64,000 nucleotides of DNA from Thioalkalivibrio sp. K90mix (GTDB taxonomy: Bacteria; Pseudomonadota; Gammaproteobacteria; Ectothiorhodospirales; Ectothiorhodospiraceae): assembly GCF_000025545.1 (NCBI RefSeq), contig NC_013889.1, positions 1,419,501 to 1,483,500 of the forward strand, written 5' to 3'. Shown one piece after another: positions 53,861 to 56,370 of this stretch. The notes below the pieces were generated by a model, which did not search any database, had not been told where the DNA came from, and saw only the letters and a program-made list of their open reading frames with translations. Numbering within the stretch: position 1 is the stretch's first letter; the number at the start of each line of letters is the position of its first letter. The position numbers were made by a program, and so were the translations under genes.

Positions 53861-55342
53861 TCAGACATCCACCTCGGTCGCGGGCTGCCTGTCCCAATGC
53901 CGGCGCAGCCTGCTCACGTCGCCCGCAAAGGCGCGCGCGTCATAGCCCGCCGCACGCATGCGTTCGGCCAGTACCGCGGACTGCGTACCGCGAAAGCAGT
54001 AGAGCACGTACGCGCGGTCGCGCGGGAGCTGCTCGAAGCTCGCCGCGAGTTCATCGGCCGGGTGGTTCACCGCGCCCGGCAGGTGCCAGTCCCGATACAG
54101 ATCGGGCGGCTGACAATCGATGATCTCCGCCGCCGCGGGGATGCGCTCGACCAGTACCGGGCTCGCGCGAGCCGCGGATGGCGCCGGCGTCCCCAGGTCA
54201 TGCATCCGCGCCTTGGCGACGGCGCGGTCGAGACAGTCGTCACTGAGCACGGCTTCCAGCTTTTCGATGTGAGCGCGCGTGCTGGTCACCATCGGCCGCT
54301 GGTTCGCAATCGCGCAGAACTCGGGGACCTTCTCGCACAGCTCGAATGTGCCGATCGCGCGCGCACGATTCATGATTTCCGTCTTGTCGAAACCGATCAG
54401 TGGCCGCAACACCGGGAGATCCGCCGCGGCATCGATTGTTTCCAGATTCGACAACGTCTGCGAAGAGACCTGGCTGAGTGCTTCGCCGGTCACCAGCGCC
54501 TCTGCGCCGCGCTCGCGCGCGATCGGCTCGGCGGCCCGATACATCAGCCGTTTCAGCACGATCTGCCAGGCATCGCCCGGCACCTTCGCGCGCAGGTCAT
54601 CGACCACGCCGGAAAAGTCGACACTGAACATCCTGGGGCGAATGCCCGCGCCCCAGTCGCTGACCAGGCGGCGACAGACCGCGAGCACCATCTCCTCGTG
54701 CACGGTCCCGCCGAGGTTGCAGAATACAAAGTCCACGGCGGTCCCGCGGCGCATGATGTACCAGGCCGCGACCGCCGAATCGAACCCGCCCGAGATCAGC
54801 ACCATGGCGCGCCCCTGCACCCCCAGCGGCAATCCCCCGCCCCCCTGCTCGCGCCTGGAATAGACCCAGGCCTGTTCGCGGTCCAGATCGATGCGGACGA
54901 CGACCTCGGGGCGGTCGAGATCGACCCGGCCGGGCCCGTCCAGAACCGCACCCACCCGCCGCTCGACCTCCGTTGCCGAGATATCCTTGCGGCCATGGCG
55001 CTTGCAGCGAACGGCATACCGGCGCCCGCGCACGGCCTCCGTGAAATGAGCGCCCACGACCTCGCAAAGGCGTTCCACCGAGACCTCCTTGAGCACCACC
55101 TCGACCGGCGAGAAGGTGCTGACCCCGAAGGTCTTGTGCAGGATCGACTGCGCCGCCTCCGGCTTGGGCGTATAGAGCACCAGCCGGCCCTGGTGGGTCC
55201 GCAAGTCATGCGGGATGCCGGTCAGCGCACGCTTGAGGTTCCGCCGCAGGACCCGCGTGAAGTGGCGCCGGGTGCTGGGCGACTTCAGGTGAATCTCGGG
55301 GGCCAGGCGTACGATGATCGGGGTGGCGGCGACGTCAGTCAT
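53861..55342 (-). CDS. thiI: tRNA 4-thiouridine synthase ThiI, rhodanese-type
   Basis: Sulfurtransferase that makes 4-thiouridine at tRNA position 8 and may serve thiamine synthesis. The 493-residue protein has an NFLD/THUMP N-terminus (residues 1-165, EIHLKSPSTRRHFTRVLRRN), the PP-loop MVLISGGFDSAVAAW near 180, the cysteine in CEKVPEFCAI near 340, and a C-terminal rhodanese domain with active-site Cys in YVLYCFRGTQSAV. All catalytic parts are present. The ATG lies within the last codons of the upstream RudS-like gene (eight-base overlap), so the two are coupled. Confidence 0.95.
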   Translation of the reverse strand: MTDVAATPIIVRLAPEIHLKSPSTRRHFTRVLRRNLKRALTGIPHDLRTHQGRLVLYTPKPEAAQSILHKTFGVSTFSPVEVVLKEVSVERLCEVVGAHFTEAVRGRRYAVRCKRHGRKDISATEVERRVGAVLDGPGRVDLDRPEVVVRIDLDREQAWVYSRREQGGGGLPLGVQGRAMVLISGGFDSAVAAWYIMRRGTAVDFVFCNLGGTVHEEMVLAVCRRLVSDWGAGIRPRMFSVDFSGVVDDLRAKVPGDAWQIVLKRLMYRAAEPIARERGAEALVTGEALSQVSSQTLSNLETIDAAADLPVLRPLIGFDKTEIMNRARAIGTFELCEKVPEFCAIANQRPMVTSTRAHIEKLEAVLSDDCLDRAVAKARMHDLGTPAPSAARASPVLVERIPAAAEIIDCQPPDLYRDWHLPGAVNHPADELAASFEQLPRDRAYVLYCFRGTQSAVLAERMRAAGYDARAFAGDVSRLRRHWDRQPATEVDV

Positions 55343-56273
55343 GGATCTCTTCGTTCAGGAGTTCCTGGGGAAACGGGTTCAGGATGCTTTGCTCGCGCAC
55401 CCACTGGATGTCCAGTTCCCGGGCGATCGCGCGAATCCGTGCGTAAATGTCGCGTGGCGGGCACTCGCCGCGCCGACAGGCGTCGATCGCGCCGTGCAGG
55501 CTCGCCTGACGGGACGGATCGAGATGCTCGCGAAAATGCCCGGCCATATGCTGCAACACGTTCACATGTTGGCCAACCGACACCGGTGTGGCCAGCACCC
55601 GCATAAACCGCTGCAGGTATCCGTGCGCGACCTCGTTTCGCGGTTGCCCGGCGGCTTTCGCGACAAAGCGCCCCAGCTGGTCGTAGCCGACACGGTCGTG
55701 GCTGAGCAGGAGCATCTTTTCGCGCGTATGGAAACGCACCAGATCCGCCGGAGTCCACGGCGCGGCAAACAACTCGCGCACCCGCGCATGCGCGAAAATG
55801 CGCTCGACAAAGGCCTCGCGGGTATTGGAGATGGCCATCCCGGCCTCCTCGACGACGGGCAGGTCAGGTAGCGCATCGGTCAGTGCGGCGGCGAACAGGC
55901 CCGCAGCAGGCTCGGCCTCGTTCGCCACCCGAACCTCCAGCCCGCAACTGGGCGATCGTGCCTTGAATATGTAGCCATCCAGTCCGGCGTCCGCGAGGGC
56001 CGGCACACGCCCTTGAACAAAGTCCTGCACGGGTCCTGTGCAGTCACCACCCGTTTCGTTCCCGCGCAGCGCCAGGCGTCCCCCTTCACGAACCAGGTGC
56101 ATCGGCTCGCGCGGCGTGCCCAGCACCGCCTCCGGGCAGACAGGTACCCAGGTGACATGGCGTGCCAGCCGTTCGACCAGAAAGGCCTCCCGCCGATGGC
56201 CGCCGTCGTAGCGCACGGGTTCGCCGAGCAAACACTGCGACACGCCGAGATTGGGGGTTGGGTGCGGATTCAT
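55335..56273 (-). CDS. TudS (DUF523)-DUF1722 fusion, RudS-like tRNA 4-thiouridine desulfidase
   Basis: A 312-residue two-domain protein. Residues 1-150 are the TudS/DUF523 desulfidase, with the three [4Fe-4S] cysteines seen as Cys14 (SQCLLGEPVRYDG), Cys46 (PVCPEAVLGTPREP) and Cys110 (RSPSCGLEV). Residues 165-310 are DUF1722 (RFHTREKMLLLSHD, HVNVLQHMAGHF). This fusion is the architecture of RudS, which removes sulphur from 4-thiouridine of tRNA. Its stop overlaps the thiI start by eight bases, so the eraser and the writer of the same mark are coupled. The ATG at 56273 is used. Confidence 0.88.
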   Translation of the reverse strand: MNPHPTPNLGVSQCLLGEPVRYDGGHRREAFLVERLARHVTWVPVCPEAVLGTPREPMHLVREGGRLALRGNETGGDCTGPVQDFVQGRVPALADAGLDGYIFKARSPSCGLEVRVANEAEPAAGLFAAALTDALPDLPVVEEAGMAISNTREAFVERIFAHARVRELFAAPWTPADLVRFHTREKMLLLSHDRVGYDQLGRFVAKAAGQPRNEVAHGYLQRFMRVLATPVSVGQHVNVLQHMAGHFREHLDPSRQASLHGAIDACRRGECPPRDIYARIRAIARELDIQWVREQSILNPFPQELLNEEIHD

Positions 56274-56370
56274 CTGCCATGCGGATGGATATGCAGGACA
56301 TTCAGGGTAGCAAGCCACGCCATGCGACACCGACCGCTATACTGCCAACAGTATCTGCCGGAGCATCCGC

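Follow-up and report, generated by a model that had tools for sequence, protein, structure and literature searches.

RudS is a recently described bacterial eraser of a tRNA modification. Its role in removing 4-thiouridine (s4U) from tRNA and its phyletic co-occurrence with ThiI have already been published (PMC11417400). RudS proteins of the same architecture, including distant ones from Thermus and from phage, remove s4U from tRNA in E. coli, where the Thermus protein reduced s4U 8.7-fold (PMC11417400). The published rudS neighbourhoods contain photolyase genes, LitR and carotenoid operons, and RudS genomes that lack ThiI were also noted, for which a different writer was guessed (PMC11417400).

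The window, a 64,000-nucleotide stretch of the Thioalkalivibrio sp. K90mix genome, carries a rudS-like gene that overlaps thiI. What is new here is a physically linked, co-inherited rudS-thiI pair, together with a divergent RudS lineage. A thiI-rudS operon is not described in the open-access literature that we searched. We consider that the two genes form an s4U module, with ThiI as the writer and RudS as the co-translated eraser, and give this reading a probability of roughly 0.6. The features of the locus are as follows.

53861-55342, minus strand: thiI, tRNA uracil 4-sulfurtransferase with a C-terminal rhodanese domain, 493 aa (TIGR00342, Pfam, conserved residues)
55335-56273, minus strand: rudS-like gene, TudS-DUF1722 fusion, 312 aa, predicted [4Fe-4S] tRNA 4-thiouridine desulfidase (Pfam, catalytic residues, AlphaFold2/Foldseek)
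55845-56246, minus strand: TudS (DUF523) domain with C14, C46, C110, E48, R55, S107 and S109 (PF04463, residues 10-143; alignment)
55368-55718, minus strand: DUF1722 domain of the fusion, divergent, predicted to bind tRNA (PF08349, residues 186-302; role from PMC11417400)
55335-55342, minus strand: 8-bp stop/start overlap ATGACTGA between rudS and thiI (sequence; conservation in relatives)
56340-56353, no strand assigned: perfect dyad TACTG-N4-CAGTA, candidate operator, between rudS and a divergent patatin-like gene (motif count and comparison)

The rudS and thiI genes of the window

Both reading frames are intact. The rudS product, which starts at an ATG at 56273, matches PF04463 (E = 3e-30) and then PF08349 (E = 3e-26), both far over the cut-off, and thus has the TudS domain followed by DUF1722 within one protein, as in RudS. 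Alignment places all three RudS cluster cysteines in the window protein (C14, C46 and C110), and the catalytic residues E51, R60, S111 and S113 in RudS_KT numbering correspond to E48, R55, S107 and S109. In a Foldseek comparison of the AlphaFold2 model (mean pLDDT 94.6) with solved structures, the best matches were TudS, and only TudS was found at E < 0.001. The fusion is likely to remove s4U from tRNA.

The thiI product gives a TIGR00342 equivalog match of 270.2 bits (cut-off 264.5) and is complete by Pfam, with ThiI_fer (ferredoxin-like), THUMP, ThiI (PP-loop) and Rhodanese domains. Comparison with the E. coli ThiI sequence identifies the PP-loop motif SGGFDS and equivalents of the catalytic C344 and the rhodanese C456, and the window protein has the domains and motifs expected of ThiI, the SGGxDS signature among them. 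Its predicted function is most likely the formation of s4U at tRNA position 8. Estimates of dN/dS (about 0.2 for rudS and 0.1-0.15 for thiI) indicate purifying selection on both genes.

The thiI ATG sits within the 3′ end of rudS, and the overlap ATGACTGA is exactly 8 bp long. The sequence-only reading of this DNA had described an upstream gene with a three-cysteine TudS core and a DUF1722 tail, a downstream thiI and an eight-base overlap between them; each part of that description is borne out by the domain matches, the cysteines and the coordinates given above. The same overlap is kept in five species, and a 4-bp ATGA overlap occurs in two further species, in which RudS is only about 52% identical. 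Ectothiorhodospira mobilis and T. denitrificans have short gaps between rudS and thiI instead. An intact pair with a conserved overlap and purifying selection is far beyond chance.

From the overlap we infer that rudS and thiI are co-transcribed. An AcuI-like reductase gene lies on one side of the pair and genes for patatin-like and pentapeptide proteins lie on the other, all on the opposite strand, and the unit therefore comprises two genes only. The GC content of rudS and thiI is close to the window average, and a recent foreign origin was rejected on grounds of composition. The dyad TACTG-N4-CAGTA has one match in the window against 0.19 expected, and is present in five species that share the AcuI/patatin arrangement, with conserved arms and a variable spacer; it is absent from those loci of pair-less relatives that were read here. 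The dyad is a candidate operator for either rudS or the patatin gene. The window gave no Rfam match to an RNA element, no match in a sigma-70 promoter scan and no tRNA genes.

Distribution and neighbourhood of the pair

Forty-seven species genomes of the window's family were each searched with both proteins. Both genes are present in 10 genomes and neither in 37, and no genome (0/47) carries one alone. In all 10 pair-bearing genomes the genes are adjacent, on one strand and in the order rudS, thiI. Random placement would give this split with a probability of 1 in C(47,10), or about 2e-10, when relatedness is ignored. On an rpoB tree, which holds one partial and unreliable row (G410), the pair label needs at least four changes, in which both genes always go together; the sign test gives p = 0.125, as about four independent gain or loss events are too few for the co-distribution to be significant. 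The nearest named relatives are Thioalkalivibrio, with the RudS of strain ALJ21 being 88% identical, and there are additional relatives in T. denitrificans and E. mobilis.

Could the adjacency be merely an old family gene order that says nothing of shared function? It was found in one family only, and two pair-bearing lineages share synteny with a pentapeptide-repeat gene, a residue that suggests vertical descent with losses; joint loss would then explain at least some of the pattern. However, the pair stays intact in several contexts. Five species have the AcuI/patatin arrangement. By translations, one species has a betaine-type ABC transporter and a pentapeptide protein beside the pair, another has the pair behind a GGDEF protein, and in T. 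denitrificans it adjoins a membrane protein. The AcuI-patatin interval of pair-less sister species is filled by genes whose translations indicate a zinc-ribbon protein, a thioredoxin and a membrane protein. Persistence across deep divergence (about 50% identity in RudS), overlaps of differing length and the fact that the genes are found separately in none of the 47 genomes likewise make neutral gene order an improbable explanation, and the survey supports a functional link in this family between the writer and its predicted eraser. As genome evidence that is independent of overexpression, it argues that RudS function depends on ThiI. In E. mobilis (L085, 4489-8954), genes encoding a sensor histidine kinase and a response regulator of the OmpR type immediately precede the pair. 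The stop codon of the regulator gene runs into the start of rudS, and two-component control of the pair is possible in this species.

Outside the family the picture differs. A RudS scan was run over 84,980 species genomes and the best 80 RudS loci were examined. The thiI gene is adjacent in all eight of these loci that come from the window's family, and it occurs in none of the flanks examined, some of them short, of the other 72 (0/72), which come from many lineages. The neighbourhood survey that the sequence-only reading had proposed thus found adjacency in every pair-bearing family genome and in no locus examined elsewhere. By coordinates, DUF1722 and ThiI genes lie side by side only in the two pair-carrying family members among 369 Gammaproteobacteria sampled across the class, and the one Actinobacterium with both RudS and ThiI does not have them paired.

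RudS genes also occur on many enterobacterial plasmids (172 of 275 matching plasmids were typed as conjugative) and in lambdoid phages (L178, L179, L182). The plasmid and phage RudS regions that were read contain no thiI and so give no case of a pair borne on such elements; ThiI itself occurs on a few large replicons. On a Pseudoalteromonas plasmid (L183, 1756-5319), rudS is flanked by a sigma factor/ChrR anti-sigma pair on one side and by phrB on the other, a light-stress context of the singlet-oxygen type.

A link of the family pair to light was considered and rejected. The flanks of the family pair loci contain no photolyase gene in any locus examined, and the photolyase gene of the window genome is about 0.6 Mb from the pair. 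Photolyase occurs in nearly all family genomes, whether or not they carry the pair, and there is accordingly no correlation between the two.

In the class sample of 369 genomes, DUF1722 is found in 98 and full ThiI in 29, with 16 genomes common to both. ThiI is missing from 82 of the DUF1722 genomes, and 78 of these encode a PP-loop protein of approximately 350 aa that carries an NFACT-R_2 domain at its C-terminus, its presence being called by an E-value threshold. This protein is PF02568-like, matches PF18297 and has conserved PCxxC and GGC cysteines; its identity was established by Pfam in three genomes and by BLAST against those three in 20 more, 10 of which have DUF1722. The genes are located as follows.

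L233, 1489-2535; L234, 1486-2538; L235, 1492-2535; plus strand in these three: PP-loop/NFACT-R genes
L237-L256: further PP-loop/NFACT-R genes

Either ThiI or the PP-loop/NFACT-R protein is present in 94 of the 98 DUF1722 genomes, against 108 of the 271 without DUF1722 (Fisher p about 4e-25, relatedness ignored). This side result points to a specific candidate for a second s4U writer: the PP-loop/NFACT-R protein may be an alternative s4U-forming enzyme or tRNA thiolase that partners RudS.

A divergent RudS lineage and the role of the pair

The ten family RudS proteins group in a single clade on a long stem. R118, the arginine of the MERVKVY loop, is deleted in all ten and kept in 105 of 114 other RudS. 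R155 is replaced in all ten and kept in 112 of 114, and its loss is almost peculiar to these ten; in the window's clade R244 is also changed to V. The window RudS thus lacks conserved tRNA-side residues (R118, R155, R244 and others), although these do not strictly define RudS. Elsewhere among the relatives, 37 of 114 have SPSSG in place of SPSCG, which puts Ser at the position of the third predicted cluster cysteine; these include deltaproteobacterial and Anaerolineae MAGs (L136, L142, L143, L145, L146, L149, L153, L154, L159, L160, L162, L167 and others).

Together with p = 0.125 on the tree, the changes at R118, R155 and R244 count against a writer-eraser module, and the loss of R118 and R155 as predicted tRNA-side contacts would fit a role in salvage or detoxification. 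The fusion would then act on 4-thio-UMP or on short thio-oligonucleotides from the decay of s4U-tRNA, not on intact tRNA, and would be needed only where ThiI makes s4U, which would also account for rudS tracking thiI. Stand-alone TudS does exactly this (PMC10611767). Against such a role, DUF1722 is retained under purifying selection, and every RudS tested so far is active on tRNA but has little activity towards free thiouracil. The R244 mutation halves the effect of RudS_KT, and its R155M variant still removes most s4U (PMC11417400). As R118 and R244 are missing from the active Thermus RudS too in our alignment, and R155M is active, the losses are no strong argument against tRNA erasure, and we regard salvage as unlikely.

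The altered RNA-contact surface and the strict pairing with one ThiI lineage could also be read as proofreading, in which RudS removes sulfur that ThiI has misplaced at wrong uridines or in aberrant tRNAs and s4U8 is not regulated. We know of no precedent for this, no sequence feature demands it, and it is the least probable of the explanations considered.

The writer-eraser module is favoured by the domain content of both enzymes and their catalytic residues, the TudS fold of the model, the published removal of tRNA s4U by other RudS in E. coli, the 10/37/0 co-distribution, universal adjacency, the two overlap lengths and purifying selection on both genes. The class-wide tracking of ThiI or the PP-loop/NFACT-R protein by DUF1722 also counts in its favour. 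In such a module, ThiI would take sulfur from a cysteine desulfurase via its rhodanese cysteine and convert tRNA U8 to s4U. The TudS-DUF1722 protein would bind tRNA through DUF1722, strip the sulfur at its [4Fe-4S] cluster and restore U8. One overlapping message would keep the two enzymes in step, giving a limited and steady partial level of s4U.

The sequence-only reading had gone further and proposed that coupled synthesis provides dynamic control of this UV-sensing mark. The functional link stands, given the co-distribution and the adjacency in 10 of 10 genomes. Dynamic control does not follow from the overlap, because one message makes both proteins together; co-expression by itself gives a steady ratio, no light gene is linked to the pair, and this part of the proposal is speculation. 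As shared transcription raises writer and eraser together, any switching would act on translation or on eraser activity, through the redox or iron-sulfur cluster state, and oxidation of the cluster is a plausible route for modulating the eraser.

More tentatively, and with rather less confidence than for the module itself, the pair may be a self-contained accessory cassette that is gained or lost as a unit and is independent of light regulators, its specialized RudS having co-evolved with its ThiI. Its role could be, for example, editing or the setting of a partial s4U level, and if this is true bacteria would have an optional s4U8 module. Across the family, some of whose soda-lake and photosynthetic members carry the pair, rudS and thiI are either both there or both missing, and this points to a single linked unit for the s4U mark. 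An eraser-writer unit set among sister species that lack both genes offers a natural experiment, in which s4U with an eraser is compared with neither.

Comparison with described systems

The window protein shares its domain architecture, the three cluster cysteines and the catalytic E/R/S/S residues with the RudS of Jamontas et al. 2024 (PMC11417400). It differs in that its gene overlaps thiI and has no photolyase, LitR or carotenoid genes alongside. Its clade lacks R118 and R155, and the identity of the window protein is about 33% to the phage RudS that has been tested and 32% to that of Thermus. The light-responsive RudS operons (phrB-LitR-rudS and similar) have rudS in common with the window, whereas the window pair has no adjacent photolyase (phr), MerR/B12 regulator or carotenoid gene.

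Stand-alone TudS (PDB 6z92-6z96 and 6zw9) provides the nearest solved structures and shares the catalytic fold and predicted [4Fe-4S] chemistry with the window RudS. In contrast to the fusion, TudS has no DUF1722, and it is known to act on free 4-thio-UMP, not on tRNA. The window ThiI resembles the E. coli-type enzyme with rhodanese in all domains and catalytic cysteines, at an identity of about 33%, but thiI is here partnered by rudS and is an accessory gene, missing from 37 of the 47 family genomes.
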